From assembly GCF_017301615.1 (NCBI RefSeq), contig NZ_CP059066.1:2029001-2093000 (forward strand): a stretch of DNA of 64,000 bases, read 5' to 3'. The stretch comes from Koleobacter methoxysyntrophicus (lineage in GTDB: Bacteria; Bacillota; Thermosediminibacteria; Koleobacterales; Koleobacteraceae). The position numbers and the translations under genes are program-made. Shown here in pieces: positions 3,732-19,620 of the stretch. How positions within the stretch are numbered: the first letter of the stretch is position 1; each line of letters starts with the position of its first letter. The notes under the pieces were generated by a model. It had not been told where the DNA came from. It did no database searches and saw only the letters and a list, made by a program, of their open reading frames with translations.

Positions 3732-4838
3732 ATGCTGTCGATAAGGTTAAGTAAAATAATAACAGCCATTGTGATTATAATTTTCTTGTTCATATTTGCT
3801 GCCTGCGATAAAAGTGAAAACGAAATCCTAAAACAGCCTGAAATAGATAAGGCACCTGGTGGTTCTGATAAATCCGTCGAACAGAACAATAAAGGGGAAA
3901 GTGAAGGAAATATTCTAGAAGGAGAGGAAGCGGATAACAACCGGAAGGACATAGACCTGGCTGAAGTAAAACCCAATGAGGCGGGAAAGGTTATGATAAT
4001 AATGTATCATGATATTTCAGATAGGGAAGGTGAATGGTCCAGACATTATGAAAATTTCAGAAAGGACCTGGAAATCTTCTATCAGAAGGGATACAGGCTG
4101 ATAAGTTTAAAGGATTTTTTAGACAATAATATAGATATTCCCGCGGGTTTTTCCCCAATAATATTTACCTTTGATGATGGGACAAAGGGTCAGTTTAATC
4201 TTATTGAGAAGGACGGGGAATTGGTTATCGACCCTGTGTGTGCAGTTGGAATTCTTGAGGAATTTAACAAAAAATACCCGGATTTCGGGATGGCAGCTAC
4301 CTTTTATGTATATTACCCAATTCCCTTCAGACAGAAGGAATATATCGGGCAAAAATTTGAATATTTGATTAAAAACGGTATGGATATAGGGAACCACACC
4401 TACAGCCATGCAAACCTGAAGGGAATTTCCCGACAGGAAATACAGAAAGAGATAGGCCTTCATATCAAAAAAACCATGGGATATTTAAAGGATTATAATG
4501 TTGATACTTTGGCCCTGCCCTATGGCAGCTATTCAAAAGACAATTATGAAGTTATTATATCCGGCAGATATGACGATATAGAATACTTCAACAGAGCAAT
4601 ACTGATGGTTGGTGCAGAGCCTGCATTATCTCCTGTCCATAAAAGATTTGATCCCCATAGGCTTCCTAGAATAAGAGGAAGTCAGGTATATATCGACAGA
4701 TGGTTGAAGCATTTCGATGATAATCCACATGAGAGATATATAAGTGATGGAGACCTGAATACTATTACAGTTCCCAAAGAAATGAAAAAAAGTATTAACC
4801 CGGAAGCATTGAATGGCAAAGAGTTAAAGGTTTATTAG
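3732..4838 (+). CDS. Polysaccharide deacetylase lipoprotein (NodB domain)
   Basis: A 368-residue predicted lipoprotein: basic N-terminus, hydrophobic core, then a lipobox (FAAC) with Cys near residue 26, followed by a low-complexity Asp/Glu/Asn linker. The carbohydrate esterase family 4 domain follows, with MYHDIS, the FTFDDGT motif carrying the metal Asp, the NHTYSH motif with two metal His, and ALPYGSY. It should remove acetyl groups from cell-wall or extracellular glycans outside the membrane. I chose the ATG at 3732 because GGGGG precedes it and the signal sequence begins there; the frame is open further upstream to 3633 but those residues do not look like part of the protein. Confidence 0.85.
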   Translation: MLSIRLSKIITAIVIIIFLFIFAACDKSENEILKQPEIDKAPGGSDKSVEQNNKGESEGNILEGEEADNNRKDIDLAEVKPNEAGKVMIIMYHDISDREGEWSRHYENFRKDLEIFYQKGYRLISLKDFLDNNIDIPAGFSPIIFTFDDGTKGQFNLIEKDGELVIDPVCAVGILEEFNKKYPDFGMAATFYVYYPIPFRQKEYIGQKFEYLIKNGMDIGNHTYSHANLKGISRQEIQKEIGLHIKKTMGYLKDYNVDTLALPYGSYSKDNYEVIISGRYDDIEYFNRAILMVGAEPALSPVHKRFDPHRLPRIRGSQVYIDRWLKHFDDNPHERYISDGDLNTITVPKEMKKSINPEALNGKELKVY

Positions 4839-4840
4839 AT

Positions 4841-5113
4841 TTAAAACCTTCCTGTAATCAGCAAAATGCCGATTATAATAAAAGCAGAACCTGCACCTGC
4901 ATGTATATAACTGGTAGGAATTATTTCAGCAATAGTTCCTCCCAGTAATACTCCAATAAGAGAAGTGAGAATAAGGGCAGCAGAGGCCCCTAAGAATACA
5001 CCTAACATAGATTCGCTGTTATGAGCGGCCATAAGCATAGTCGTTAACTGGGTTTTGTCTCCTAATTCTGCGAGAAAAACTAGAACAAAGGTTATAAGGG
5101 ATGTTTTCCACAT
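4841..5113 (-). CDS. Half-size GDT1/TMEM165-family (UPF0016) membrane protein, probable Mn2+ exporter
   Basis: A 90-residue protein with three hydrophobic segments and the family signature E-x-G-D-K-T-Q near residues 16-22. Full-length GDT1 proteins have two such repeats; single-repeat forms must dimerise. Characterised family members export manganese or exchange Ca2+/Mn2+ for protons. A GGGAGGT ribosome binding site precedes the ATG. It follows a membrane protein gene on the same strand with two bases between stop and start, so they are co-transcribed. It ends only two bases from the convergent deacetylase gene. Confidence 0.82.
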   Translation of the reverse strand: MWKTSLITFVLVFLAELGDKTQLTTMLMAAHNSESMLGVFLGASAALILTSLIGVLLGGTIAEIIPTSYIHAGAGSAFIIIGILLITGRF

Positions 5114-5115
5114 TT

Positions 5116-5391
5116 TTATGACCTCCCAAGGGTCTTTTTCTTTTTCCTTGACCTGATGACTTTAATCCGTCCTGTATAGTGCTGCAGTAAACTACCGCAT
5201 AATCCCCCAATTATGGTTCCTATTATTATGCTGTATATAAAAGCATCACCGACACCTGTTGCTAGTTCCAAATTTATTCCTAAAATTGCCGGGAGACTCA
5301 ATATGCCTTTTATATTAAGCAAATATCCCGTGTAGAAAGGAATCCATGATACGAATGCCCATAAAATACCGATAACGATACCCTTTTTCAT
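5116..5391 (-). CDS. Small membrane protein of unknown function upstream of the GDT1 half-protein
   Basis: A 91-residue protein with about three hydrophobic segments and a highly basic C-terminal tail (IRSRKKKKTLGR). It lacks the E-x-G-D motif, so it is not the second GDT1 half by sequence. The tight spacing to the GDT1 gene suggests a functional partner, for example a second subunit. I do not recognise the family. The ATG is preceded by a GGGGTGA ribosome binding site on the minus strand. Confidence 0.6.
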   Translation of the reverse strand: MKKGIVIGILWAFVSWIPFYTGYLLNIKGILSLPAILGINLELATGVGDAFIYSIIIGTIIGGLCGSLLQHYTGRIKVIRSRKKKKTLGRS

Positions 5392-5535
5392 AAAAAATCA
5401 CCCCGGTTTTTAGTTCTACCTAATTATATAAAGATATACAATTATTTATTCCTGTTCTGTAAGTAATGTGTAATAATTTATTTTTTTTTTAATAAGTTGA
5501 ATATAGAAAAAATCTTTTTAAAAGAGGTGAGTATA

Positions 5536-6306
5536 ATGAAGGTTTTTCTTTTACATAGAAGGCATTTAATAACGATAGCAATCATAGTGGCAGGAACTAT
5601 AAGCCTGGCTGTTGTGGTTAGCTTTACCCAAACCCTTGTAACTGTATTTAAACCTTCAGAAAAGCTATTACCGATTTACCGGGTTTATACCCCTGAGAAG
5701 AAGCTTTCTATTTCCTTTGATGCGGCCTGGGGTTCGGATAAGACGCCCAAAATTTTAGAAATATTGAGAAAATACAACGTAAAAACGACGTTTTTCCTGG
5801 TAGGGTTCTGGATAGAAAATTACCCTGATATGGCAAAAAGAATTGTAGAAGAAGGCCATGAAATAGGGAACCACTCTTCAACACATCCTAAGATGGGCGG
5901 GCTTTCGGAAGAAAAGATATATGAGGAACTAAAACGAACACACGATATTATAAAGGAGACTACCGGCTTTGAAGCCACCCTTTTTAGACCGCCTTTTGGA
6001 GACTACAGCAATACACTTATCCGGGCAGCAGAGAAATTCGGTTATAAAGTAATCCAGTGGGATGTAGATTCTCTTGACTGGAAAAACTTCTCTTCGAGGG
6101 CTATTGCAGATCGTGTTCTGTCCAGGGTCGAGAACGGTTCAATAGTTCTATTCCACAATAACGGAGCCCATACCCCTGAAGCGGTTGATATAATTTTAGA
6201 GAAATTAATTTCTGAAGGGTATGAGATAATACCTATATCCCGATTATTGATAGATGGTGAATATTATATAGACCATAGAGGAGAACAGAGGCCTGTCGGC
6301 AAATGA
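5536..6306 (+). CDS. Polysaccharide deacetylase family protein, PdaB-like (sporulation)
   Basis: A 256-residue protein with an N-terminal membrane anchor (about residues 10-32) and a NodB domain. The first motif reads SFDAAWG rather than TFDDG, as in the PdaB subgroup that acts on spore peptidoglycan in Clostridia and Bacillus. The NHSSTHP motif (metal His), RPPFGDY and the late LFHNN block are all present. A GAGGTGAG ribosome binding site supports the ATG at 5536 over an upstream TTG at 5497. The missing second Asp of the usual DDG pair may affect catalysis, but it is a subgroup trait and not a local mutation. Confidence 0.82.
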   Translation: MKVFLLHRRHLITIAIIVAGTISLAVVVSFTQTLVTVFKPSEKLLPIYRVYTPEKKLSISFDAAWGSDKTPKILEILRKYNVKTTFFLVGFWIENYPDMAKRIVEEGHEIGNHSSTHPKMGGLSEEKIYEELKRTHDIIKETTGFEATLFRPPFGDYSNTLIRAAEKFGYKVIQWDVDSLDWKNFSSRAIADRVLSRVENGSIVLFHNNGAHTPEAVDIILEKLISEGYEIIPISRLLIDGEYYIDHRGEQRPVGK

Positions 6307-6395
6307 CTTTTTAAAAGTTGACTGTAATTTAAAACAAAAATATAATGGTAATAGGAATATTTATAAATATATTATTATATAGGAGAGAAGAGACG

Positions 6396-6671
6396 ATGCC
6401 GTATAATGAGGATCTACAGAAGGAAGTTCTGACCAGGCTCAGGACTATAAAAGGCCATATAGGTGGAATAGAGAAAATGGTTGAGGAGCAAAAGGACTGT
6501 CCGGATATTTTAATGCAGGTTGCTGCAATCAGGTCATCAATAGAAAAATTGGGCGTATTTTTGCTGGAAAATTATGCAGAAGAATGCCTTTTAAAGGCAA
6601 TAAGAGACAAAAAGGACATCTCCCAGACCTTTACAGATGTGGTTCAGCAAATATTGAGGTTCTTAAAGTAA
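6396..6671 (+). CDS. CsoR/FrmR-family (DUF156) transcriptional repressor
   Basis: A 91-residue all-helical repressor. The N-terminal RLRTIKGHIGGIEKM helix is the family hallmark. Copper-sensing CsoR uses Cys36, His61 and Cys65; here Cys35 and Cys64 are kept but the middle ligand is Tyr60, so the classic Cu(I) Cys-His-Cys site is broken. It may sense another metal, sulfane sulfur or an electrophile. An AGGAGAG ribosome binding site lies 8 bases before the ATG. No metal exporter is adjacent except the GDT1 half-protein about 1.3 kb upstream on the other strand. Confidence 0.85.
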   Translation: MPYNEDLQKEVLTRLRTIKGHIGGIEKMVEEQKDCPDILMQVAAIRSSIEKLGVFLLENYAEECLLKAIRDKKDISQTFTDVVQQILRFLK

Positions 6672-6698
6672 TTCTATGATTATGAAGGAGACAAGGCG

Positions 6699-7205
6699 AT
6701 GATTCCTGTTATTTCAATCGTAGGGCGTTCGAATAGCGGTAAAACTACCCTTTTGGAAAAGATTATTGGCGAATTGAGAAGGAGGAATATTAAGGTAGGG
6801 ACGATTAAACATCATCATTACACCTTTGATATAGATACTGAGGGTAAAGATACCTGGAGGTTTTGGATGGCAGGTTCTGATTCCGTAGCAATTTCTTCTC
6901 CTTCAAAATTTGCATTGGTGTCCAGAGTTGAAAAAGAAAAAAATATTGATGAGATAGTTCGTTTAATGGGAGATGTGGATCTTGTAATAACTGAAGGTTA
7001 TAAAAAATGCGACAAACCTAAGATTGAACTGATAAGAAGGCAAAAAGGGGAACAACCGATGGAATATCCTGAAGGGAATCCTCCTATTGCTTTTGTGGTA
7101 GACAGCAAAGAGGGATTCCAGGCCGGTGATATACCGGTTTTTTACCGGGATGACATAATCGAAATTGCAGATTTTATTATTGATTTTTGTAAGCTGAAAC
7201 CCTGA
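6699..7205 (+). CDS. mobB: Molybdopterin-guanine dinucleotide biosynthesis protein B (GTP-binding adapter)
   Basis: A 168-residue P-loop protein with the Walker A motif GRSNSGKTT near residues 9-17, the KHHHY block that follows it in MobB, and the VITEGYK motif near residue 100. MobB binds GTP and assists MobA in attaching GMP to molybdopterin for molybdenum and tungsten enzymes. The length is normal. No other molybdenum gene is in the window, so its target enzymes are elsewhere. It is closely followed by a strong terminator. Confidence 0.92.
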   Translation: MIPVISIVGRSNSGKTTLLEKIIGELRRRNIKVGTIKHHHYTFDIDTEGKDTWRFWMAGSDSVAISSPSKFALVSRVEKEKNIDEIVRLMGDVDLVITEGYKKCDKPKIELIRRQKGEQPMEYPEGNPPIAFVVDSKEGFQAGDIPVFYRDDIIEIADFIIDFCKLKP

Positions 7206-7240
7206 TATTAAATACAACTCCGGACCATTTTAATTTATAG

Positions 7241-7290
7241 AGGTTTCACCGTAAAATATAGAAGTATATGGTGAAACCTTTTATTTTTTG
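7241..7290 (+). terminator. Rho-independent terminator after mobB
   Basis: The arms AGGTTTCACC (7241-7250) and GGTGAAACCT (7270-7279) pair over 10 bp, followed by TTTTATTTTTT. The loop is 19 bases. Confidence 0.85.
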
Positions 7291-7453
7291 AATATATTGG
7301 TTGAAAATGTGGCAGGTAAAGTAAAGGTTTTTGGAGAATAGACAGATATATTTGATTATTAAATCCTGTCACATAATATTCCGGGTGGAAGATTTAGAAT
7401 AATAATTAACCATTCGGCCTGATTTAAAAGGGATTTACTTTTTCGCCCGTTAG

Positions 7454-7469
7454 TGGCATCTATTTTGCA
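7454..7469 (+). promoter_or_regulatory. Sigma-54 (-24/-12) promoter for the LevR-gat operon
   Basis: TGGCAT-CTATT-TTGCA matches the consensus TGGCAC-N5-TTGCA, with the GG and GC dinucleotides exactly 12 bases apart. It lies 28 bases before the start of the LevR-type sigma-54 activator gene. No second -24/-12 site is seen between that gene and the PTS genes, so this promoter probably drives activator and transporter together, giving positive feedback. Confidence 0.85.
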
Positions 7470-7496
7470 AAGTAAAACAATAAGGAGAGGGGAAAA

Positions 7497-10475
7497 ATGA
7501 TTGATAAAATAAAAGAATTGATCGAAAAGGAAGATAAAAAGAATCCTCTTACAGATGAAGAATTAGCAAAACTCCTAAACATTAAAAGGGAACAAATTAC
7601 TGTGCTGCGCAATGAAGAGGGAATACTTGATTCAAGGGAGAGACGAGGACCTATTCTGATAAAACATCTAAAAGAAATATTACTTAACAATCCCGGTATT
7701 TCGGATAGAGAATTAACCAGGCAGATTAAAAAACGAGGATTTAAAATTTCTAGGTATACAGTAAAACAATATCGTAATGAAATAGAAGATAAAACGAAAA
7801 AAGAAATAATTAATATATCACAGCCGAAATCCGATAAAAAGACTAATCTTGAGTATAAAGGGCCGGAAAATACCGCTCTTTATAATAAAACCGAACCGGA
7901 ACGAGATGCCTTTTCAAATATAATTGGTTCCACAGGGAGTTTAAAGCCTCTGATACAGCAGGCTAAAGCCGCTGTCCTTTATCCCCCATTTGGCCTTCAT
8001 ACTTTAATTTTGGGGAATACCGGTGTAGGGAAGAGCGACCTGGCAGAGGCCATGTATCAATTTGCGAAACAGGCGGGGACCATTGATGCAGATGCTCCTT
8101 TTGTAATTTTCAATTGTGCAGATTATGCTGATAATCCTCAGCTCCTGTTGGCACAGCTATTCGGATATGTCAAAGGTGCTTTTACCGGTGCTGACACCGA
8201 TAAAGAAGGTTTGGTGGAAAAAGCAAACGGGGGAATATTATTCCTGGATGAAGTCCACAGGCTCCCCCCTGAAGGCCAGGAAATACTGTTTTATATAATG
8301 GACAAAGGGAAGTTCAGGAGACTGGGTGAAACGGGAGAAGCGAGAAAGGTTAACCTGATGATAATTGCGGCTACAACGGAAAATCCGGAATCCACTCTGC
8401 TCCAGACCTTCAGGCGGAGAATCCCGATGATTATTGAATTACCACCCCTTTCTGCCAGACCTCTTTCTGAGAGGTTTGAAATGATAACCTATTTCTTCCG
8501 TAAAGAAGCCGGAAGGACGGGGATGTCAATTAAGGTTTCTCAGGAAGCATTAAAAGCACTGCTGCAGTACGAGTGTCCGGGAAACATCGGTCAGCTGATG
8601 AGCGATATACAGGTTGCCTGTGCGAGGGGTTTTTTAAATCATATGATAAACCAGACAAAAGTTATGGACATAAAGATCGAAGACCTGCCTTATCATACAA
8701 GAAAAGGCCTGTTGAAAATACAGAACAGAACAGAAGAAGTTGAAAATATCGTTAAAGGCAGCCTGATTGTTCACCCTGATAATAAACCGATTGATGTGCT
8801 GCCTAAAGAAGACTTATATACCCTTCCTTCAGAGATATATCAACATATTGAACAAAGATATGCGGAACTCCAGAGCAAAGGCATGTCCTGCGACATTATA
8901 AATTATATACTGGGTACCGAATTGGAGAGCCGATTTAAAAAAATAATGAAGCAGGTAGAATCTAATGCAAGACCCCTTGAGAAAAAGGATTTGGTGAAAA
9001 TAGTAGGTATAGAGGTAGCCGATGTTGTAGAAAAGATGCTGAAAATTGCCGAAAGGAAATTAGGGGTTTCCGGAGATAGTCTATATTACTGCCTGGCAAT
9101 TCACCTGAGCACAACCCTTGAACGGGTGAAGCATGGGAAAACCATATTAAATCCTCAATTGCAAAAGGTAAAGAGGGAATATTTTCATGAATATAAGGTT
9201 GCTAAAGAGATGGTGGGTTTGGCAGAAGAAAAACTTAATATTAAACTTCCGGAAGATGAAATCGGTTTCGTCGCGATGTATTTACGCACCCTTACAGAAA
9301 AGGAAGAAACGAGGGAAGAAGGAAGGATAGGAATTGTCGTTATTTCTCACGGCCATGTAGCAAACGGGATGGCTGAGGTGGCCAACCGTTTACTAGGGGT
9401 AGTTCATGCAAAAAGTGTAGAGATGTCCCTGGATGAAAGCCCTGAAATGGCTTTAGACAGAGCAATCGAGGTGGTAAAAAGCTGCGATGAAGGGAAAGGG
9501 GTTCTTCTTTTAGTGGATATGGGTTCCCTTGTGACCTTTGGCGAGATAATTACGGAAAGGACGGGGATAAGGACCCGCATTATTTCGAGGACAGATACAG
9601 TAATGGTGATAGAGGCCGTTAGGAGGGCAATACTGCCCGGAGTAACGTTAGATGAACTTGCCGATACATTGGAAGAGAACCCCAAATACTTAACCAGGTT
9701 ATCGAATAATAGACCGGAAAAAGGGAAAAAACCTAAAGCAATTTTAACCATATGCATAACCGGTGAAGGCTCCGCTATTAAAGTTAAGGAATACATCGAA
9801 AACCTGATACCGGGTTTGGAAGATATAGAGATAATCCCTATTGGTGTACTAACGGAAAATATCGGGGATTTAATCTCCGCCATAGGGGAAAAAAAGGATT
9901 TATTGGCTGTAGTTGGAACAATAAACCCCGATTATGATAATGTGCCATTTATATCTATTGAAGAAATCATGAAAGGTTCAGGGATTGCTGGTCTTAAGGA
10001 AATAATTAGCGGGAGAAAGAAAAGGTTAGATCCTAGGGATGCACATGGCCCAAAATGTCATTTAAAAAAGATGTTTTACCCTGAGATAGTATTGATGCAG
10101 CAGAAGGGCTTTAGCAAGGAACAGGTCATACACCATTTGGGGGAACTATTGATTAAATACGGTTATGTTAGGGAAGGTTTTGTTCAGCAGGTCTTTGAAA
10201 GAGAAAAGGACGGCATAACATTTATAGGCAATGGAATTGCCGTCCCCCATGCTGAACCTTCATATGTGCTGAAGCCGTGTATAGCCTTTGCAAATCTGGC
10301 TGAGCCGGTAGACTGGGATGGTTACCCTGTTAACCTGGTTTTTATGCCGGCGCTACTGCCTGCGTGTAAACCGGTTTTCCAGGACCTGTACAATATAATA
10401 CGATCTCCCGATTCCCTAAAAGCCCTTAAAGAAGCGACCAATTTTGAACAATTGATGGATGCTTTAAAAGAGTGA
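7497..10475 (+). CDS. LevR-type sigma-54-dependent transcriptional activator with PTS regulatory domains
   Basis: A 992-residue activator. Residues 1-96 hold two HTH-like repeats resembling the sigma-54 RpoN box; the second reads SRYTVKQYRN at 85-94. Next comes the AAA+ domain with Walker A GNTGVGKS (173-180), the sigma-54 contact loop GAFTGA (about 227) and Walker B LFLDEVH. A PRD domain follows (about 460-575) with His near 536; the second PRD His position appears to be Tyr (FVAMYL). Then come an EIIA-Man-like domain (His about 618), a GatB-like EIIB segment and a C-terminal EIIA-Fru/Gat domain (AVPHAEP, His about 918). Activity is expected to be set by PTS phosphorylation. It is first in the operon, before galactitol-type PTS genes. 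A GGAGAGGGG ribosome binding site precedes the ATG. Confidence 0.9.
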   Translation: MIDKIKELIEKEDKKNPLTDEELAKLLNIKREQITVLRNEEGILDSRERRGPILIKHLKEILLNNPGISDRELTRQIKKRGFKISRYTVKQYRNEIEDKTKKEIINISQPKSDKKTNLEYKGPENTALYNKTEPERDAFSNIIGSTGSLKPLIQQAKAAVLYPPFGLHTLILGNTGVGKSDLAEAMYQFAKQAGTIDADAPFVIFNCADYADNPQLLLAQLFGYVKGAFTGADTDKEGLVEKANGGILFLDEVHRLPPEGQEILFYIMDKGKFRRLGETGEARKVNLMIIAATTENPESTLLQTFRRRIPMIIELPPLSARPLSERFEMITYFFRKEAGRTGMSIKVSQEALKALLQYECPGNIGQLMSDIQVACARGFLNHMINQTKVMDIKIEDLPYHTRKGLLKIQNRTEEVENIVKGSLIVHPDNKPIDVLPKEDLYTLPSEIYQHIEQRYAELQSKGMSCDIINYILGTELESRFKKIMKQVESNARPLEKKDLVKIVGIEVADVVEKMLKIAERKLGVSGDSLYYCLAIHLSTTLERVKHGKTILNPQLQKVKREYFHEYKVAKEMVGLAEEKLNIKLPEDEIGFVAMYLRTLTEKEETREEGRIGIVVISHGHVANGMAEVANRLLGVVHAKSVEMSLDESPEMALDRAIEVVKSCDEGKGVLLLVDMGSLVTFGEIITERTGIRTRIISRTDTVMVIEAVRRAILPGVTLDELADTLEENPKYLTRLSNNRPEKGKKPKAILTICITGEGSAIKVKEYIENLIPGLEDIEIIPIGVLTENIGDLISAIGEKKDLLAVVGTINPDYDNVPFISIEEIMKGSGIAGLKEIISGRKKRLDPRDAHGPKCHLKKMFYPEIVLMQQKGFSKEQVIHHLGELLIKYGYVREGFVQQVFEREKDGITFIGNGIAVPHAEPSYVLKPCIAFANLAEPVDWDGYPVNLVFMPALLPACKPVFQDLYNIIRSPDSLKALKEATNFEQLMDALKE

Positions 10476-10565
10476 AACTGGAGTGCAGCAGAGGTGGTAT
10501 TAGGTAATTCAATTGTGCCTGTTTTAAAAACAACGTGTAGATAAAGATAAGGGGGTATAAATATC

Positions 10566-11045
10566 GTGGATGTTATGAAGTTATTTAAAGAGGATTTAAT
10601 AGTAACAGGTTTAGAAGCAAAAAATGATGAAGAAGTTATAACCGCTTTGGGGAACCTGCTTTATTTGAAGGGGTATGTAAAAAAGAGCTTTGTTAAGGCG
10701 GTTATTGACAGGGAAAAAAAATACCCAACCGGTTTGCCGATAAATGAAATAAATCTTGCAATACCCCATACTGATGCTGAGCATGTATTAAAACCAGCAA
10801 TTGCATTAGCCGTACTGAAAAAACCGGTTCTTTTCAAAAATATGGCAGATCCTTGCCAAAAAGTAAAAGCAAATTTGGTTTTCACTATAGCTTTAAATGA
10901 TAGCCACAATCAGCCGATATTGTTGCAAAAACTCATGTCAATTTTTCAGGATGAGAAACTGCTGTTGACTATAAAAGAATCACAAAGCGCTTCTTCTATT
11001 TTTGACATAATTAAATTAAAGTTCAAAGAAGAAAATGTGTCTTAA
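10566..11045 (+). CDS. gatA: PTS galactitol/fructose-type EIIA component
   Basis: A 159-residue EIIA of the fructose/mannitol/galactitol fold. The phosphorylatable His sits in LAIPHTD near residue 61. It accepts phosphate from HPr and passes it to the EIIB encoded next. It resembles the C-terminal domain of the preceding activator, suggesting a shared origin. The start is a GTG with GGGGG about 10 bases upstream. The gat symbol follows the family of the three subunits; the true sugar is unknown because no catabolic enzyme follows. Confidence 0.85.
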   Translation: MDVMKLFKEDLIVTGLEAKNDEEVITALGNLLYLKGYVKKSFVKAVIDREKKYPTGLPINEINLAIPHTDAEHVLKPAIALAVLKKPVLFKNMADPCQKVKANLVFTIALNDSHNQPILLQKLMSIFQDEKLLLTIKESQSASSIFDIIKLKFKEENVS

Positions 11046-11096
11046 TAAAAATAAAAACAGAATAAGTTCTATCAAAATAACGAGCGAGGGGGTGAA

Positions 11097-11381
11097 ATGT
11101 TGAAAAAAAGAATTGTTGTAGCATGCGGAACAGGAATTGCCACTTCAACGGTTGCTGCAGAGAGGATTTCAAAAGAATGTGAAAAGGCAGGAATAGATGT
11201 TGATATCATCCAGTGCAAAGTATCAGAAATTAACAGCTATTTGGCGGATGCAGACCTAATAGTTTCAACAACAATTTTGCCAGTAAAGACGGATGTACCC
11301 GTAGTAAATGGCTTGCCTTTTATTACAGGAATAGGCATTGAAAAGGCAGTAGAAAGCATCGTAAAAGAATTAACCTGTTGA
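11097..11381 (+). CDS. gatB: PTS galactitol-type EIIB component
   Basis: A 94-residue cytosolic EIIB of the GatB family. The phosphocysteine is Cys10 in VACGTGIATS, the active-site loop of this family. A GAGGGGGTG ribosome binding site precedes the ATG. It lies between the EIIA and the interrupted EIIC genes in one operon. Confidence 0.9.
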   Translation: MLKKRIVVACGTGIATSTVAAERISKECEKAGIDVDIIQCKVSEINSYLADADLIVSTTILPVKTDVPVVNGLPFITGIGIEKAVESIVKELTC

Positions 11382-12217
11382 TAAAGGATTGTATTTTTTG
11401 ACTGAAATATTAATATGAAGGAGGTTAATATGATGAGCATAATAAATTTTATTCTTGACCTTGGGGCCACTGTTATGCTGCCAATAATCATCTTTCTTTT
11501 AAGTATCATCTTAGGTCAAAAACCAGGAAAGGCTTTTAGATCAAGTATTACAATCGGAGTTGGTTTTATCGGCATAAATCTGGTTATAGGATTATTGGTT
11601 AATAATTTGGGCCCTGCAGCAAAGGCTATGGTAGATAGAATGGGCATAGAATTAAATGTTATTGATGTAGGATGGCCTGCAGCGGCGGCAATAGCTTTTG
11701 CTTCTAAAGTCGGAGCATTGGTAATTCCAATAGGATTGGCTGTTAATATTTTAATGCTTATTACAAAAACAACAAAAACTGTAAATGTGGATTTATGGAA
11801 TTTCTGGCACTTTGCATTTACCGGGGCTTTGGTAAATGCTGCAACAGGAAGTTTAACATTGGGAATGATCGCAGCAGCAATAAATGCGGCTATTGTTTTA
11901 AAACTGGGTGATTGGACCGCACCAATTGTGCAGGAATTTTACGGTATTCCGGGCATATCATTACCTCACGGTTTTTCAGCTGCTTATGTTCCTATAGCTA
12001 TCCCAATAAATAAACTAATTGACAGAATACCGGTTATCAATAAAATTGAGGCAAGCCCGGAAACTATTAACAAAAAGTTCGGTGTATTTGGTGAACCGAT
12101 TATCCTAGGGTTGATTCTAGGTTTAATTCTTGGGGTTTTAGCAGGTTATGACCTTAAAGGAATCCTGCAATTAGGGATGTCTATGGCAGGTGTAATGCTG
12201 TTAATGCCGAGAATGGT

Positions 12218-12225
12218 AAAAATTT
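12218..12225 (+). repeat. Left 8-bp target-site duplication of the ISL3 element
   Basis: AAAAATTT directly precedes the element and is repeated exactly at 13573-13580. Eight base pairs is the usual duplication length for ISL3-family elements. Confidence 0.95.
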
Positions 12226-13572
12226 GGTTCATCTCCATTTCCGTTGGTAAAAAGCAGCTAAAATAGAAGGACATCTGCATACCTCGTCGTAATTAGATAT
12301 TGACTCTAAAACATCTAAGGAGGTATTACAGATGTCCAATATAAGTATAACATCATTATTCCCCTTTCGTCGACTAAAATTTATAGGTTCAGAGGACATT
12401 GATTTCGAGCAGGGTACCGGAAAAGTAGTTGAATTAAAACCAGACCTGCGTTTTACGCCCATTTGTTCTAAATGTAGCAGTAAAGGAGTCGGTAAGCATT
12501 CTAACCATCAACGTTTCTTAAGAGACCTTTCCTTAGGTCCTCATAAAACGCTAATCCATCTACATTATCGCAAGATAGAGTGTCCTCTGTGCGGTCAAAT
12601 AGTTGTAGAAGAGCTGGATATAGCCGAACCTGGTGGGCCAAGGGTAACCCGGCGTTTGGCTGTCTACATACAGGAACTCTGTAAATTAATGACCGTAAAG
12701 GATGTAGCAGAACATCTCCAGCTGGATTGGAAAACGGTTAAAGAAATTGATAAACAGGGTCTTAAGCAGGAATTTGCCGATATAGACTACAACGGATTAC
12801 GGTATTTGGCAATAGATGAAATCTCTTATGGAAAACACCACCGGTATCTGACTAATGTCATCGATTTTGAAACCGGCCGGATTGTTTGGGTTGGTAAAGA
12901 CCGTAAATATGAAACCTTAAAAGAGTTCTTCTTAAAGATGCCGGAGGAGGTACGAGACCAAATTAAGGCTGTTGCCATGGATATGTGGGACCCATTTATT
13001 AAAGCAGTTTCTGAATTTTGTCCCCAGGCTGCCATTGTCTTTGATGTATTTCATATAGTCGCTCAATACAATAAAGTAATTGACAAGGTCCGTAGAGTAG
13101 AAACCAGGGCTGCAATGGAAACTGATAAAAATGTCATTAAGGGCAGCCGCTGGATCCTGCTTAAAAATCCGGAGAATCTTAAAGAAAAGGAAATACCTCG
13201 TTTGGAAAAACTGCTTTCGATTAATAAGAACCTTTCCACCGTATACATTTTGAAAGATGAGCTAAAAACAATCTGGCAATGTAATGACCGCCAGCAGGTG
13301 TCAAAAGCGCTTGATGAGTGGTGCACAAAAGCATTGGAATCCGGTATACCTGCATTAAAACGGTTTGTGAAAACCTTACGACGCCATGAATACGGTATCC
13401 TTAATCACGCTGATTATCCAATACATACGAGTAAGCTGGAAGGGATAAACAATAAAATTAAGGTTATCAAACGTCAAGCTTATGGCTTCCATGACCTGGA
13501 GTATTTTATCTTAAAAGTTAAACAAGCCTGCTCATGAAAGCGTTAGTTCACCAACGCTTTTGGAGATGATCC
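12226..13572 (+). mobile_element. Complete ISL3-family insertion sequence (copy 1)
   Basis: The element is 1347 bp. Its ends are imperfect inverted repeats: left begins GGTTCATCTCCA, then CGTTGGT; right, read inward, begins GGATCATCTCCA, then CGTTGGT. Exact 8-bp duplications flank it. It holds one transposase gene in the same orientation as gatC. A decayed second copy lies at 40574-41783. Confidence 0.95.
12332..13537 (+). CDS. ISL3-family transposase
   Basis: A 401-residue transposase, full length for the family. The N-terminus carries a zinc-finger-type segment (CSKC near residues 45-48 and CPLCG near 85) and the phrase HNHQRFLRDLSLG-like block that introduces ISL3 DNA-binding domains. The DDE catalytic core begins about residue 150 (LAIDEIS) and includes AVAMDMWDPF. 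The C-terminus has the HTSKLEGINNKIKVIKRQAYG block with the catalytic Glu. An AAGGAGG ribosome binding site precedes the ATG. The gene appears intact, so the element may be active. Confidence 0.95.
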   Translation: MSNISITSLFPFRRLKFIGSEDIDFEQGTGKVVELKPDLRFTPICSKCSSKGVGKHSNHQRFLRDLSLGPHKTLIHLHYRKIECPLCGQIVVEELDIAEPGGPRVTRRLAVYIQELCKLMTVKDVAEHLQLDWKTVKEIDKQGLKQEFADIDYNGLRYLAIDEISYGKHHRYLTNVIDFETGRIVWVGKDRKYETLKEFFLKMPEEVRDQIKAVAMDMWDPFIKAVSEFCPQAAIVFDVFHIVAQYNKVIDKVRRVETRAAMETDKNVIKGSRWILLKNPENLKEKEIPRLEKLLSINKNLSTVYILKDELKTIWQCNDRQQVSKALDEWCTKALESGIPALKRFVKTLRRHEYGILNHADYPIHTSKLEGINNKIKVIKRQAYGFHDLEYFILKVKQACS

Positions 13573-13580: not shown

Positions 13581-14109
13581 TAATGGAAGGGCTTATTCCA
13601 GTATCTGAGGCTGCAAGAGATTTTATGCAGAAGCGGTTTTCAGGGCAAGAGTTTTATATTGGGCTTGATTCTGCTGTAGCTATCGGGCATCCTGCAGCCA
13701 TTGCAACTGCCCTTATACTGGTACCTATTACTATAATTCTTGCTTTAATTGTACCGGGGAACAATGTTTTGCCTTTTGGAGATTTGGCTACTATACCGTT
13801 TATGATAGCAATGGTTGCACCCATTTCAAAAGGGAATGTTTTTAGGTCAGTTATTATCGGTGCTATTGTTATTGGTGTAGGCCTGCTTATAGCTACAAAT
13901 GTCGCGCCTCTGCATACGCAGGCTGCCATAGATGCGGCTTTCCAATTCCCAGAAGGGGCTTCGAAAATTTCTAGTATATGTGATGGCGCTAACCCCTTAA
14001 CCTGGGTACTGTTACAGATAATGAAGATTTTTAGGTAAAAAGCGTAAAACAGTTTTTATTTCGATAAATAAATGCCAATAATTTTCAGCTTCTAATAGTT
14101 CATGATAGT

Positions 14110-14140: not shown

Positions 14141-14392
14141 TGAATTAATGCATTAATTTCTGTGAAATCAAAATTATAAAGGCAGTATATAAATTTAAGT
14201 AGGTAGCAAGAAGGGAAAAGTAACCCTGTTAATAACTTGAGGGAATGTCACCTTAAAAGGGCTAATTATCGTGAGAAAATGACGTTGATAAGGAGAAAAC
14301 AGTCTTTTATACAATTGATATCCTTTATGACTAAAAGTGCAGAAGATGAGTTGTAATATAGTATAAAAATCTAATATTTGGGGTGAGTGAGG
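14141..14392. other. Gene-free stretch with spaced GAGAAAATGAC-like repeats
   Basis: No convincing gene. Three related blocks, GGGAAAAGTAAC (14213), GGGAATGTCAC (14241) and GAGAAAATGACG (14273), recur at about 30-base intervals in the same orientation, with a partial fourth (GGAGAAAACAG at 14292). Spaced repeats of this sequence type occur at the ends of IS21-family elements; no transposase remains here. The right part ends in the ribosome binding site of the next gene. Confidence 0.35.
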
Positions 14393-14920
14393 ATGCAAGG
14401 AGATTTAAGTAATTTAAAAAATAAAATCCTGGAAAAGGCTTATAAAAGAGGTTATTATTACGAAGGCAAGTATAGAGGTTGTTCACAAGCTGTGGTCGCA
14501 GCTATTTTAGATCTTTTTAACATAGACGAAATCGTCTTTAAGGTAGCCAGTGGATTTTCCGGAGGAATAGCAGAAGAGGCAAAGGGCACATGTGGAGCAT
14601 TTTCAGGTGGCGTGATGATAATTTCATACATCTTTGGTAGAGATCTGGTACATTATCATCTAAGCTGATCTAAATTCAGATATCGGGAGCTTATTAGGAA
14701 ATTGCGTCGTCTATTTTATGAAACTTATAATGGTGAGACATGTTTGGCTGTACAAAATTTTATATTTGGCCGATATTATGATATGAGTGACCCTGCCCAA
14801 AAAAAGGCTTTTGAAGAAGCCGGAGCCCATAAGGACAAATGTACACACGTAGTAGGAACTGCTGCAAAGTGGATTACAGAAATCTTATTAGACGAAGGGG
14901 TACCATTACAGAAACTATAA
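14393..14920 (+). pseudogene. C_GCAxxG_C_C family redox protein gene interrupted by an in-frame TGA
   Basis: One reading frame continues from 14393 to 14920 except for a single TGA at 14666-14668. The first part has the YRGCSQAV segment and GTCGAFSGG, matching the family's Cys-rich core; the second part, after the TGA, continues with RELIRKL, GETC and KCTHVVGTAA, which hold the last two conserved Cys. Together they give about 175 residues, close to the family's usual length. The family is a probable redox protein with a bound cofactor of unknown role. The TGA replaces a residue in a variable linker, not a conserved Cys, so I favour a nonsense mutation over selenocysteine. Confidence 0.75.
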
Positions 14921-15089
14921 AAACAGGCCGATTATCTCCTATACTTTTCAAGGAAAATTTATATACTTATACAATGTTATATGTTATAATGTAGTTATAT
15001 GGAATAATTGGATAGGTTTAGTATTTTAAAAGATAAACTTTACAATTACTTGAGTGCCGTATTTATTCTGTTTCTTTAGGATGATGCGC

Positions 15090-15656
15090 ATGAGTAACTT
15101 TATGTCAAAAAATGAATACATTATAGCTTTTCAGAAACTCTATAACTTTATATATAAAACCATCCTATATATTATAAAAGACAAAGATTTGGCTTTGGAT
15201 ATTTGCCAGGAAGCTTTCATAAGAGGATACAATAAGATACATACCCTTAATAATACAGCAAAGTTTAGGACCTGGATACTGAAAATAGCTACCAATATAG
15301 CATATGAATATATTAAACGAAATAAAGAAATATGCGTTGAAGATATTAATGGTATAATACAATTGGAAAACGAGTTTTATTGCAAAGTAAACAATGTAGA
15401 GCAAGAAGTTTTGAACCATGAACTAGAGGAGGAAATAAAAAAGATATTAATCTCATTAAATTCGAGGTATTCCACTGTCTTAATTTACAGGTTCTACTGT
15501 GAAATGACTTATGAAGAAATAGCTACAGAACTCGGTATTGATATTAATTCAGTTAAGGTAAATCTGTACAGGGGAAAAAAACAATTTAAAAAACGGTTAC
15601 AGATGAATAATACCCTTAAAGAATACATAAGGGGTGTAGGGATAAATGGAAAATAA
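15090..15656 (+). CDS. ECF-type RNA polymerase sigma factor
   Basis: A 188-residue sigma-70-family protein. Region 2 (about residues 10-85) has DLALDICQEAFIRGYNKI and FRTWILKIATNIAYEYIKR, the core-binding and -10 recognition helices. Region 4 (about 120-175) has MTYEEIATELGIDINSVKVNLYRGKKQFK, the -35 helix-turn-helix. I chose ATG 15090, which follows an AGGATGAT stretch; other ATGs at 15081, 15084 and 15102 are possible. The next gene overlaps its end and encodes a membrane protein, the usual sigma/anti-sigma arrangement. Likely targets are the two promoter motifs at 16977-17009 and 17049-17081. Confidence 0.9.
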   Translation: MSNFMSKNEYIIAFQKLYNFIYKTILYIIKDKDLALDICQEAFIRGYNKIHTLNNTAKFRTWILKIATNIAYEYIKRNKEICVEDINGIIQLENEFYCKVNNVEQEVLNHELEEEIKKILISLNSRYSTVLIYRFYCEMTYEEIATELGIDINSVKVNLYRGKKQFKKRLQMNNTLKEYIRGVGINGK

Positions 15657-16425
15657 AGGGGATATGATTATAAAAAGATGCCTGGATGATGTAATAAGCA
15701 GTTTACCCGAACCAGATATTCAACCGGATTGGGGTACTTTAATCTCACGGATTGAGGAAGATGAAAAAAAGGGAAATACTTACAAAACGATTTTTTTAAT
15801 CAAAGCAAAAAAATATTTAATCGCAACATCAATCTCCCTGTTAATTCTCTTCCTGTTAACTTTCATAAGTATATCTTTAACCGTCAGTCCAACCAGTGCA
15901 AAGAACACCTTTGTAGAGAATATCATTTTTAAAGTAAGACAAAACATCGGTAGTATTTTTAAAATGTCAACCGATTACAACATAGAAAATAATGATATAG
16001 AGAAAGAGGAAAGTAATGATTTGATAAAAAAGCTTAATACAACAGATATTGAGGAAGCGCAGACCATTTCAGGCGGTATAATTACTTTTCCCGCTTATAT
16101 GCCTCCAGCTTACAGCCTGGAGAATATAACCTTATACAAAGTGGAGAATAAAGTGAAAAACATATTCCTTGAATATACTGATAATAAAGGGAATTACATT
16201 AAGCTAAGGGAAACCATAATTGCTGAAGGAAATGCCTATGAAATAAACTACAAACAGGACAACGCAAGTGTATCAAAGTTTCAAGAAGACAGTATCCATT
16301 ATATTCTATTATCCTTTGAGAATGGGATATCCAAACTAATCTGGGATAAATTCGGCATAAATTATATGCTGACAGGTCCATTGAATAGAGATGAAATGTT
16401 AAATATCGCAAAATCCATAAAATAG
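15646..16425 (+). CDS. Membrane protein with DUF4367-like domain, probable anti-sigma factor
   Basis: A 259-residue protein with a short cytosolic N-terminus (about 55 residues, helical and charged), one membrane segment (about 57-79) and an extracytosolic domain. The C-terminal half (about 140-259) resembles DUF4367 domains: GGIITFPAYMPPAY, a repeat of beta-strand residues, and a terminal EMLNIAKSIK helix. It overlaps the sigma-factor gene by 11 bases, so the two are coupled. By position it should bind the sigma factor and release it on an envelope signal. No CHCC zinc-binding anti-sigma motif is seen. Confidence 0.75.
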   Translation: MENKGDMIIKRCLDDVISSLPEPDIQPDWGTLISRIEEDEKKGNTYKTIFLIKAKKYLIATSISLLILFLLTFISISLTVSPTSAKNTFVENIIFKVRQNIGSIFKMSTDYNIENNDIEKEESNDLIKKLNTTDIEEAQTISGGIITFPAYMPPAYSLENITLYKVENKVKNIFLEYTDNKGNYIKLRETIIAEGNAYEINYKQDNASVSKFQEDSIHYILLSFENGISKLIWDKFGINYMLTGPLNRDEMLNIAKSIK

Positions 16426-16427: not shown

Positions 16428-16456
16428 GAGAGAGGGGGGCCCTTCTCTCTTTTAGT
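16428..16456. terminator. Bidirectional terminator between convergent genes
   Basis: GAGAGA (16428-16433) pairs with TCTCTC (16444-16449), with further G-C pairing inside. A CTTTTAG stretch follows on the plus strand. It lies between the convergent anti-sigma and DUF6147-like genes. Confidence 0.65.
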
Positions 16457-16943
16457 TTATAAAATACGGATTGGTGTAGCTTGTCTGCATCTCCATCAAA
16501 CTGCCATCCTCAGCATAATGAGTTCCTTTTACTCTGTATTCATAACCTTTGTCAACAGTAGCACTTTTAAAACAGTATGCCTCATTCTTATTAAACTCAA
16601 CAGTGTTCCATGTTTTAACAGTAATCCAGGATGCCCCTGTTTTCTTTTGCAGTTCAACTTTTACACATACTTCTTCTACGCTAGAGTATGTCTCTGTGCT
16701 TCCTTCCACTCCAACCAGACCATTTCCGTAATCATGCAAAGCAGTATACCATACAATAATCAGGTCTACTTCTCCGGCAGCATTGGGTACCAACTCCATA
16801 TCAGGCTTGGAATGATAGTCTTTTATGGTATTAATGGCTGTTTGTGATTGAAATGCATCACCTGCAGCATAAGCAGTTGTTGTGGAAACTATCAACAAAG
16901 GAATAATTGATAGAGCAATAAGGATTTTAATATAATTTTTCAT
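16452..16943 (-). CDS. Secreted protein, DUF6147-like
   Basis: A 163-residue protein with a clear signal peptide (basic start, hydrophobic core, cleavage expected after AYA at about residue 26). The mature part is beta-rich with paired segments (VCVKVELQKKTGASWITVKTWN and YRVKGTHYAEDGSLME) resembling the DUF6147 family of exported Clostridia proteins of unknown role. It has two Cys that might form a disulfide. A GAGAGGAGAG ribosome binding site precedes the ATG. It is preceded by an ECF-like promoter motif, so it is a likely target of the nearby sigma factor. Confidence 0.75.
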   Translation of the reverse strand: MKNYIKILIALSIIPLLIVSTTTAYAAGDAFQSQTAINTIKDYHSKPDMELVPNAAGEVDLIIVWYTALHDYGNGLVGVEGSTETYSSVEEVCVKVELQKKTGASWITVKTWNTVEFNKNEAYCFKSATVDKGYEYRVKGTHYAEDGSLMEMQTSYTNPYFIN

Positions 16944-16976: not shown

Positions 16977-17009
16977 ATATAAGAGGGAAGATTTACTGAA
17001 AATGTTACA
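16977..17009 (-). promoter_or_regulatory. ECF-sigma-like promoter, leftward, for the DUF6147-like gene
   Basis: On the minus strand, TGTAACATTTT (starting at 17009) is followed 24 bases later, start to start, by CTCTTATAT (starting at 16985). The same two blocks at the same distance occur on the plus strand at 17049-17081. TGTAAC resembles the AAC-containing -35 of ECF promoters. Confidence 0.65.
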
Positions 17010-17048
17010 GGTTTTCGAAAGAAATTCAAAAAAATTTTCCCAAAACAG

Positions 17049-17081
17049 TGTAACATTTTTTGCCTTAAAACACTCTTATAT
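17049..17081 (+). promoter_or_regulatory. ECF-sigma-like promoter, rightward
   Basis: TGTAACATTTT at 17049 and CTCTTATAT at 17073 reproduce the blocks and 24-base spacing of the leftward site. It points toward the decayed small gene and the secreted protein gene at 17560. Confidence 0.65.
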
Positions 17082-17084: not shown

Positions 17085-17559
17085 GATAAGCACAATAGAA
17101 TAATGAAGAAGGAGAGGTTATGCTTATGAGGGTGTAATAACTGCATATGTAGAATGCAGGTAATATTAAAACTATTACTTTTCATATAAAAGATATGCTG
17201 TTGAACGAGAGAACAATGGTTTTGGAGGAAGCCATATAAAAAGTAAAAATATGTATTAAAAATTCAATTATGAGGGGAGAGGTAATAATCAATGAAAAAA
17301 ATCTGTTTCTAATTCTTTTAGTTATAAGAGGGTAAAATTCTATTTGAAAGGGAGTGAGACCATTGGGCTAGTAACTTATTTGTTTACCTGTATAGCAAGA
17401 GGCTACCATTGGTAAAAGCTTGAAAATAACCTTAACTAAAACCCTTAAAAAGACTGAATCTTGTTCCCAAGAGGTTTTTAAAGGAGAAAAAATAGTTACT
17501 CTATTAAAATGTTCTCTCAACAATATCCAAAAATTTAATAAAAAAGGGGGATAGTCTAA
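17085..17559 (+). other. Gene-poor leader region with remnants of small genes
   Basis: No intact gene above 40 codons is convincing. An AAGGAGAGG site at about 17108 precedes a five-codon frame (ATG at 17125). A CTGCAT/ATGCAG stem lies at 17141-17159. At 17271 a GGGGAGAGG site precedes ATG AAA AAA ATC TGT TTC TAA at 17292; a shift by one base in the A-run gives a signal-peptide-like string (KNLFLILLVIRG, then stop). I read this as a decayed secreted-protein gene. The rest is AT-rich with nothing recognised. Confidence 0.4.
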
Positions 17560-18084
17560 ATGTTAAATAAGAAAAATGTATCTTTATTAGTAATAGTTTG
17601 TTTATTAATGATAATAAACTGTAATTTGGCGTTCGCTGATAATGGTAATCTAATAAAACCGAATGATGCGGGGGGGTATTGGGAGTATTGGAAAGTAGTA
17701 GAGGTAGGAAGCCAATATTGGACGTATAGCTCTTGGGAAATCGGAGCTTCAGGGACTGGTTATAAAGGTGATTCTATAGCTTATGGTGAACAAAAATCTT
17801 GGAGTAGCACCTATTCTGGAACGCTTAAATGTTCGAAAAATGAAATTGAGGCATCAGTAGGATATAGTTTTACTAATAGCGGTTCTCAATGGGCATCATA
17901 TACAGCATATTTTGAGTACGATGGTCAGTATATAGAAATACAAGTGAGAAGTGTATATAAAACCAAAAGTGTAAAACAACAAAAGTGGATTCATAATGAT
18001 GGGTATGATGTTCCAACAGGAGAATATGCATATGTGTATCCCAAAGGTTGGGATCATTGGGATTATAGAGCTGTGAAATATTAA
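17560..18084 (+). CDS. Secreted protein of unknown function
   Basis: A 174-residue protein with an N-terminal signal peptide (cleavage expected after AFA, about residue 26). The mature part is rich in Tyr, Trp, Ser and Gly, with no Cys except one, and looks like a beta-sheet surface or extracellular protein. Repeated aromatic motifs include GGYWEYWK, SQYWTYSSW and WDHWDYR. I do not recognise the family. An AAGGGGG ribosome binding site lies 8-9 bases before the ATG. It is downstream of the rightward ECF-like promoter and may be part of the envelope response. Confidence 0.65.
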   Translation: MLNKKNVSLLVIVCLLMIINCNLAFADNGNLIKPNDAGGYWEYWKVVEVGSQYWTYSSWEIGASGTGYKGDSIAYGEQKSWSSTYSGTLKCSKNEIEASVGYSFTNSGSQWASYTAYFEYDGQYIEIQVRSVYKTKSVKQQKWIHNDGYDVPTGEYAYVYPKGWDHWDYRAVKY

Positions 18085-18189
18085 CAATAACATACTTAAA
18101 TGATGTTTTTAGCTGAGGCTCGTAAGTATACACGGAGCTTTTATAATTTTTTTACAAATTTATGTGCGCTCCTGCATATTTAATGTTGA

Positions 18190-18216
18190 AAGAGGAGGGG
18201 GTAACCGCCCCCTCTT
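18190..18216 (+). other. GC-rich stem-loop just before a GTG-start gene
   Basis: AAGAG-GA-GGGGG (18190-18201) pairs with CCCCCTCTT with a two-base bulge. No T-run follows, so it is not a standard terminator. It ends about 20 bases before the GTG at 18239 and could trim, stabilise or attenuate the transcript. Confidence 0.45.
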
Positions 18217-18238
18217 CTAGATTGGAGGGATTACCATC

Positions 18239-19078
18239 GTGAAGAAAAAAATTACAGTTACAATAGCGCTGGTTATGATTTTAATAGCAAGTATTATTTT
18301 CTTAATCTATCGCCAGCGTAAAAGCACTGAGGCCGAACTTTTTTTAAATGATTGGGAAGGATATATATGTGCGAGTAGTAATGAAGTTTTTCTATTGCAG
18401 ATTCCTTGGTTCGTAATAAATAAAGATATAAAATTAAGTGAAATCAAATTTTATTTGTTAAATTTACCTGATACAGCAGAGATAATCAAAAAAGATATTG
18501 AGTTGCGATATTCGAGAGAAAATATATCGCAGTATTTAATAAACTTTTATATAAAGATCAAAACACCGCATTTATATAAAAATGACAATCTTAATTTGAT
18601 AATAGAAAAAAGTAATGTTAAGGGCATAATTCCTTTGGGAAGATGGGTTTTTGAAATTATACCGTATGAGCAAAATGAATTAAGGATTCGTGAGCATATA
18701 ACCATGTATAGTGGTAAAAATATAGATTATCCATATTATATGTTTGTAGTGGAGAACAAGAGCAACCAACCGGTAACTCTGCATGATATAGCTTACGATT
18801 CTCCCAATTTAACTAAAATAAATATCAAATATGACGATAACGCAACATTAGAAAATAACGAATGGAAGGATTTCCCCATAGGCGGGTTGACTTTAGCACC
18901 TTTTTCTTCTAAGGCCGTAGCTGTTTTTATTGAATCAAAAAATTCCAAGAAACTATACGCTCTTAAACCTAAAATAATATATTCTATTAATGATAAAATC
19001 TTTGAGATGCCTGGTGATATGTATCTCGTTACAATTTCAATGTCAAAAGAAGATATTATGAGAAAAGCAATGAGATGA
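18239..19078 (+). CDS. Membrane-anchored protein of unknown function
   Basis: A 279-residue protein with one N-terminal membrane segment (about residues 5-23) followed by a large extracytosolic part. The sequence alternates beta-strand-like hydrophobic patches with charged loops; a segment near residues 170-200 (FVVENKSNQPVTLHDIAY) resembles Ig-like beta-sandwich domains. I recognise no family. The GTG start has a TTGGAGGG ribosome binding site. It follows the secreted protein gene with only a stem-loop between, so they may share a transcript. Confidence 0.6.
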   Translation: MKKKITVTIALVMILIASIIFLIYRQRKSTEAELFLNDWEGYICASSNEVFLLQIPWFVINKDIKLSEIKFYLLNLPDTAEIIKKDIELRYSRENISQYLINFYIKIKTPHLYKNDNLNLIIEKSNVKGIIPLGRWVFEIIPYEQNELRIREHITMYSGKNIDYPYYMFVVENKSNQPVTLHDIAYDSPNLTKINIKYDDNATLENNEWKDFPIGGLTLAPFSSKAVAVFIESKNSKKLYALKPKIIYSINDKIFEMPGDMYLVTISMSKEDIMRKAMR

Positions 19079-19160
19079 ATATTTATTGTACCTGAATCCG
19101 TTGATTATTAAATTCCCAAAAACCTTGTACGAGTAAGAAAAAAGTTGTAAAATCCAAGTA

Positions 19161-19290
19161 AGGGGACAAAAAACGCAATCTTCACGAACTTTTAAACACC
19201 TCTCTGAATTTGAGCGAGGTTAAATATATGCCTTACTAAAAGAAGGTTACTCACAGGCTGAAATAGCGAAATGGAGATTATTCTAAACGT
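19161..19290 (+). pseudogene. Remnant of an IS30-family transposase N-terminus
   Basis: From 19185 the frame reads RTFKHLSEFERG, a TAA stop, then IYALLKEGYSQAEIAK. This is the helix-turn-helix start of IS30-family transposases (HLT-ERG-I-LLKEG-S--EIA). The frame ends in further stops and no catalytic core follows. Only about 100 bp remains, so it is a relic. It lies directly against a truncated gene. Confidence 0.65.
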
Positions 19291-19620
19291 CGTATCACTG
19301 ATGAAAGAATAAACTCAAAGGAAAAAATAATTTCATTACTTCAAACAGTGTATTCTTCTCAATTATCTGAAAAAATCTATACCGATACGCTCGAGTTTTA
19401 TTCTGAGAACGGGTATGTATACCAGCCTAATTTTGAATTTATATATACCAAAGATTGGAACAAAGCAAATATTAAACGTATTAATAACAAAGGCGATGTA
19501 GCTGTTGTTATAGTTGAAGTACCAGAGGAAATCGGTGAAGAGTGCATACAATGCATTCTAAGCATTGAATTCATTTATGAAAAAGCGGACGGCTGGAAAC
19601 TAAATTCTCTTATTTATTGA
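19267..19620 (+). pseudogene. 3' part of an unknown gene truncated next to the IS30 remnant
   Basis: The frame is open from 19267 to 19620 and encodes about 117 residues with no good start codon or ribosome binding site; a GTG at 19348 would give 90 residues. The residues look like a soluble extracytosolic domain (LLQTVYSSQLSEKIY, FIYTKDWNKANIK, ILSIEFIYEKADGWKL) of the kind found in small lipoproteins. The 5' end with any signal sequence is missing, probably lost with the IS30 event. Confidence 0.5.

Follow-up and report, generated by a model that had tools for sequence, protein, structure and literature searches.

Two identical sites facing apart at positions 16977-17081 of the window, the 64,000-nucleotide stretch of the Koleobacter methoxysyntrophicus genome analysed here (contig NZ_CP059066.1, 2,029,001 to 2,093,000), are in all likelihood promoters for the ECF sigma factor encoded beside them, which would fire both ways from a single intergenic region. 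This reading of the sequence agrees with the initial annotation, which had proposed that one sigma factor drives both divergent outputs. It is supported by the ECF-type spacing of the sites, the adjoining ECF/anti-sigma pair, the relative L004, the recurrence of such pairs at other loci, and the covariation of the -12 base with a residue of the sigma factor. The features that the argument draws upon are as follows:

15054..15656, + strand: ECF sigma factor gene (PF04542, PF08281 and TIGR02937, all over cut-off)
15646..16425, + strand: putative anti-sigma factor gene (PF14285), overlapping the sigma gene
16428..16451, no strand: terminator-like hairpin between two convergent genes (hairpin search)
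16452..16943, - strand: gene for a secreted DUF6147-like protein of 163 aa, the candidate left-hand target (PF19644 below cut-off)
16977..17009, - strand: predicted left ECF promoter, TGTAAC-N17-CCTC-TTATAT (motif, kept in L004, promoter scoring)
17010..17048, no strand: A+T-rich stretch between the two -35 boxes (sequence)
17049..17081, + strand: predicted right ECF promoter, TGTAAC-N17-ACTC-TTATAT (motif, kept in L004)
17109..17138, + strand: strong Shine-Dalgarno and 5-codon mini-ORF at the start of the predicted rightward transcript (sequence)
17327..19080, + strand: cassette with the genes for the 174-aa and 279-aa proteins (96.9% identity to the genome of another family)
17560..18084, + strand: gene for the secreted 174-aa protein, the first long right-hand gene (ORF, no known family)

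The inverted pair and the adjoining genes

The motif TGTAACATTTT-N13-CTCTTATAT is present in exact form at 16977-17009 (-) and 17049-17081 (+), with the two copies facing apart across a gap of 39 bases and identical at all 20 named bases. Within each copy 13 bases separate the TGTAACATTTT and CTCTTATAT boxes, giving 24 bases from start to start, just as the inverted pair had initially been described. Read as ECF promoters, both sites fit AAC-N17-NCTC. The genome search that had been proposed for this motif was carried out over the whole genome, a single contig of 3.10 Mb, and the two window sites are its sole exact copies. When up to 3 mismatches are allowed these are still the only sites in the window, against a mean of 0.01 in 100 dinucleotide shuffles; in the genome, 3 mismatches yield one extra site as compared to one match of the reversed control. 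This extra site, the third match in the genome (C1:2654999), was rejected because it lies within a coding ORF (L074 1317-1724, - strand). In view of the shuffles, the conservation in L004 and the recurrence at other loci, a chance similarity between the two sites has negligible probability. Rfam searches of seven loci (L001, L004, L005, L113, L114, L115 and L123) recovered T-box, TPP and glycine elements only, none of them at the pair.

A close comparison is provided by L004, a metagenome-assembled genome labelled Clostridium thermobutyricum, whose sigma factor is 83% identical to that of the window. It retains the gene order and both sites, with the -35 boxes 35 bases apart as against 39. All 40 motif bases are the same in both, in a region whose DNA identity is 84% (16% difference over 2.2 kb), and the fast-changing part of this region is the A+T-rich stretch at 17010..17048, which is possibly an UP element common to both promoters. 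The window gene order is also kept in L005 (Tepidanaerobacteraceae), whose sigma factor is 52% identical. The left site there has the sequence TGTAAC-N16-TATC-TATAT, and the right one, by reading, has lost the TGTAAC (the -35 is now CGGACC) and kept TATC-TATAT; the automatic scan reported no pair in this locus (p 0.62). To the right of the site lie another sigma-like gene and then more secreted proteins. L005 bears upon the alternative that only one of the window sites is an active promoter and the other a decaying relic, as the right site of L005 seems to be. Such decay would be in keeping with the loss of the right TGTAAC in L005 and with the exchange that has changed the rightward gene beside the site (see below), whereas both sites are unchanged in L004 and two matching sites are kept at other loci. 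We therefore regard a relic as unlikely and prefer two functional promoters. L005 additionally encodes, at 2376-2941, a second and interrupted DUF6147-like copy, which has a -12G-type promoter despite a local sigma factor with S in region 2.4, and which seems to have come from a locus of the L110 kind.

The ECF sigma factor and membrane partner that the initial annotation had placed just to the left were both recovered there (15054-15656 and 15646-16425). The sigma ORF opens with GTG, and the ATG at 15090 is its likely start. The protein contains regions 2 and 4 only, without region 3 or 1.1, as is characteristic of ECF (group IV) sigma factors, and in the region 2.4 alignment it shows E where DXXR-type ECFs have D. 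Its partner has the hallmarks of a co-encoded putative anti-sigma factor, namely an overlapping gene, a membrane segment and a match to DUF4367 (PF14285; 55.8 bits vs a cut-off of 22.1, E 7e-15) that places it in this family, and the arrangement recurs in the module described below. It is laid out as a short cytoplasmic N-terminus, one membrane helix and an extracellular DUF4367 domain, and a low-confidence model predicts a long helix at residues 45-78. The left-hand gene had been described as encoding a secreted DUF6147-like protein. The secreted character is upheld by a signal-peptide-like N-terminus read from the sequence; the family assignment is weak, with PF19644 at E 0.006 and 17.1 vs 24 bits, short of the Pfam cut-off, and hence the protein is termed "DUF6147-like" only. 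PF19644 is matched at E<=0.01 by 6 of 15 aligned relatives of this protein; a family search with PF19644 gave no match in the own genome or in 14 control genomes and is uninformative. AF2 models of the DUF6147-like protein (pLDDT 56, three rows) and of the anti-sigma factor (pLDDT 48, three rows) were too poor for their folds to be named, and the β-sandwich and RseB likenesses obtained with them are leads only.

The absence of the motif before the sigma gene, already noticed in the initial annotation, was confirmed over the 350 bases that precede the sigma reading frame. Among the 11 pair loci (L005 counted) L113 alone has a site in front of its sigma gene. According to the available part of one source (PMC8103513), positive autoregulation was an early criterion for ECFs that a later definition does not require, and ~55% of ECFs are autoregulated; no sign of it is seen at the window locus. 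The same part of that source gives AAC at -35 with CGT at -10 as an early criterion for ECF target promoters. Both window promoters have the AAC, and CTC at -10; the CTC in place of CGT fits the E in region 2.4.

A recurring gene module with divergent pairs of predicted promoters

DUF6147-like relatives were detected in 19 of 149 relatives by a single-sequence search and in 62 of 398 genomes of the phylum by a profile search. Sixty regions were picked from these single-sequence and profile matches by DUF6147-like score, amounting to a subset of the profile matches, and together with the window, L004 and L005 they constitute 63 loci with 72 DUF6147-like matches. Of the 72 matches, 52 have an ECF sigma gene and 51 a DUF4367 gene at a distance of up to 3 kb, while 20 have no ECF gene in that range. 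As the 3.1 Mb of the own genome contain only 4 ECF-like matches, proximity by chance would be expected in ~1% of cases; thus the ECF sigma factor, the putative DUF4367 anti-sigma factor and the DUF6147-like gene constitute, on the evidence of their gene neighborhoods, a conserved module. It occurs in three gene orders, convergent as in the window (20 matches), divergent (15) and in the same direction (17). A search of a literature that excludes most subscription journals returned nothing on DUF6147, on DUF4367 or on DUF4367 with ECFs, and no description of the module, of back-to-back promoters or of covarying specificity.

Loci were scanned for pairs, defined as two similar xxAAC sites facing apart. 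Pairs in the convergent order were observed at ten loci (the window, L004, L113, L114, L115, L123, L164, L165, L181 and L194), beside which L005 represents one further, decayed pair. Their score was reached by none of 2000 shuffles for the window, L004, L113 and L181, by 3 for L115, 11 for L165, 18 for L123, 31 each for L114 and L194, and 73 for L164. At p<=0.02 (300 shuffles) a pair is present in 7 of 19 convergent loci vs 0 of 32 in the other two orders (Fisher 4e-4); the other 12 convergent loci show no pair at this threshold, with L114, L123 and L164 among them just above the cut. Since window/L004, L164/L165 and L114/L115 are related loci, the independent cases number approximately seven. 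A motif for the two modules of G067 gave 6 matches there at <=3 mismatches, including the 4 known pair sites, and 0 with the reversed control. Pair sequences match within a locus and differ between loci, the variants being TGTAAC..CTC, GGAAC..CATC, TGAAC..TGTC, AGAAC..GTC and TGAAC..CGTC.

Inverted symmetry between divergent genes is, as is generally known, typical of operators, and the pair might accordingly be conceived as a single operator bound by a repressor or activator dimer rather than as two promoters. However, each copy is a two-part element with ECF spacing, and the distance between copies varies, both in close relatives (39 vs 35 bases) and across loci (~9 to 44 bases); this fixed spacing within each promoter combined with a variable gap between them argues for two promoters and not one palindromic operator. 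Moreover, the sequence of the sites follows sigma region 2.4 (see below), and the sigma pair are the only regulatory genes found to recur in the module among those looked for. A single operator is thus very improbable, and the two-promoter interpretation is the one carried forward here.

Region 2.4 of the sigma factor and the -12 base

In Thermoanaerobacter tengcongensis the RpoE1 promoter is tGTTAC-N16-CGTC, with D66 recognising the -12G and the aspartate of DXXR in region 2.4 accounting for this base, as stated in the available part of the report (PMC3397946). The residue at the position of this aspartate is E in the window, L004 and L113, S in L005, N in L114 and L115, and D in a paralog of the window sigma factor. 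The E of the window sigma factor is accompanied by -12C in both window promoters. To compare residue and base more widely, 28 promoter calls were tabulated, all with a score of at least 8.4 and an ECF gene within 3 kb, the promoters having been called without use of the -12 base. L128 (A with A), L112, L186 and L188 also passed the score threshold, as did second copies at L110 and L121, but all of these were omitted since they have no ECF gene within 3 kb. A -12G accompanies D or N in 15 of 16 calls, and -12 A or C accompanies other residues in 10 of 12 (Fisher 5e-5); both the decision to treat N together with D and the cut on promoter score were made after the output was seen. With one vote per 50%-identity cluster the figures are 8 of 9 and 7 of 9 (p 0.015), and with 40%-identity clusters p is 0.04. 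Exceptions to the rule are L168 (residue T with base G), the second DUF6147-like copy of L005 (S with G) and L123, an automatic call of D with A that is probably the wrong site. As the pairs were found by similarity, agreement at -12 within a pair is partly built in. These comparisons support a covariation of the -12 base with the residue of the sigma factor that should recognise it.

The paralog of the window sigma factor is 50% identical to it, is encoded ~63 kb away and carries D in region 2.4. Its -12G promoter, TGAAAC-N17-GGTC, is a single site, TGAAACTTTTTTGC-N9-GGTCATATAAG, near the paralog locus. The E/-12C of the window and the D/-12G of the paralog both fit the rule, suggesting that these two paralogs of one genome are insulated from each other. 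This observation is pertinent to a further alternative, in which the window sites are read by another sigma factor, for example the paralog, which is encoded outside the window, or the housekeeping sigma. A paralog of 50% identity at such a distance and a weak sigma-70-like match overlapping the left site might favor it, but the paralog, with its D, has a -12G promoter close to where it is encoded, while the window sites have C, and sigma-70-like matches are no commoner than in shuffles (11 vs 14.2). We consider this quite unlikely and assign both sites to the adjacent sigma factor.

A second ECF/DUF4367 module is found in the own genome 14 kb past the end of the window (L072 1476-2065 and 4010-5440; C1:2104477 to ~2108440). 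It is broken up by transposase remnants and shows by eye a C-terminal DUF6147-like gene remnant behind it; a single, unpaired -12G ECF promoter precedes the gene for a secreted protein of 152 aa.

A probably exchanged right-hand unit and a proposed switch with two outputs

Rightward of the pair are encoded the secreted 174-aa protein and a 279-aa protein, neither of a known family; Pfam yielded nothing above cut-off for the right-hand secreted proteins. The cassette that contains both genes matches L109 2384-4135, on contig G007:C24, which belongs to a genome from a different family of the same class; there the copy sits behind a remnant DUF6147-like gene. It was probably acquired by recent horizontal transfer. 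The 96.9% identity implies that the genes now on the right have probably come in recently behind a promoter that is older than they are, and that the ancestral right-hand target was probably a different one. Elsewhere the right arm starts with secreted-protein genes in L114, L115 and L123, and also in L113 after a protease-like ORF (by a reading of the N-terminus); L181 instead has a 708-aa membrane protein. In L109 the stretch 4272-12832 encodes many small secreted proteins in one direction, plus DUF6147-like and DUF4367 fragments, and is perhaps an exchange site for secreted-protein genes.

Leaders similar to that at 17109..17138, with a Shine-Dalgarno and a mini-ORF, are found in L004, L113, L114, L115 and L123, the mini-ORF of L123 being just ATG-TAA. 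A 5' Shine-Dalgarno that lacks a proper gene and has a stabilising effect on its mRNA is known as a STAB-SD, a stabiliser with which Agaisse and Lereclus (1996) are reportedly linked, and the Shine-Dalgarno of the rightward leader is perhaps an element of this type. RNA folding of this leader is no better than that of shuffles (z -0.94).

Several other features of the window were encountered. At 19200-19620 a gene for an IseA-like DL-endopeptidase inhibitor is represented by its C-terminal part, preceded by bases that, by eye, resemble a transposase helix-turn-helix remnant. A gene of the C_GCAxxG_C_C family (14387-14920) forms one open frame but for a single in-frame TGA at 14666-14668; the TGA may encode selenocysteine or may simply be a nonsense mutation. 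From translations only, a 401-aa transposase-like ORF (12332-13537) seems to interrupt a gene for a PTS-type EIIC (11415-12266 and 13583-14038).

The SigX/SigW class of Bacillus subtilis has, as generally known, a TGTAAC or TGAAAC -35 element and an adjacent membrane anti-sigma factor, and the window locus resembles this class in its TGTAAC -35 and adjacent putative membrane anti-sigma. It differs in that the window sigma factor scores far below the SigW, SigX, SigY and SigM cut-offs and would have a small, one-locus regulon at the window. The extracellular DUF4367 region bears a weak resemblance to RseB of the E. coli sigma-E system (Foldseek E 6e-3 with a low-confidence model; a lead only), although the RseB-like region is here fused to the membrane anti-sigma factor. 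As far as the available part of PMC3397946 goes, Tt-RpoE1/Tt-TolB of T. tengcongensis is comparable in having an ECF sigma factor with a membrane anti-sigma gene directly downstream, a -35 with TAC/AAC, ~16-17 bases, NNTC at -10, and a region 2.4 residue reading -12. In contrast to the window sigma factor with its E and -12C, however, Tt-RpoE1 is subject to autoregulation and uses D66 to read -12G; Tt-TolB is a 645-aa TolB-like anti-sigma factor where the window has a DUF4367 protein; and, unlike Tt-RpoE1, the window has two predicted divergent targets and no copy of the site before the sigma gene. The kind of system, an ECF regulon, is already known, and the evidence as a whole supports one sigma factor with two divergent outputs and no evident autoregulation.

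By analogy to ECF systems in general, the DUF4367 membrane protein would keep the sigma factor inactive until an extracellular signal frees it. RNA polymerase with the window sigma factor would then start both ways from the one intergenic region, producing the secreted DUF6147-like protein leftward and a unit of other secreted proteins rightward. The sigma operon itself would be transcribed from another promoter, resulting in a switch with two coupled outputs and no evident positive feedback.

We tentatively propose a broader interpretation, which we hold to be plausible without leaning towards it. The ECF sigma factor, the DUF4367 membrane anti-sigma factor and the DUF6147-like secreted protein might constitute an undescribed module that is widespread in the phylum. 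In some lineages its regulon might consist of one intergenic region fired both ways without feedback, with the right arm serving as a place where secreted-protein cassettes are exchanged. Region 2.4 might have changed in step with both promoters, generating a natural series of insulated sigma/promoter pairs that includes rare readers of -12C and -12A. Quite apart from this broader interpretation, the locus offers a regulon that can be tested and points to what two unnamed families probably do, with DUF4367 as an anti-sigma factor and the DUF6147-like protein as its main output. The natural sigma/promoter partners with unusual -12 bases may help to explain how ECFs read the -10 element, and might be usable as insulated genetic switches.
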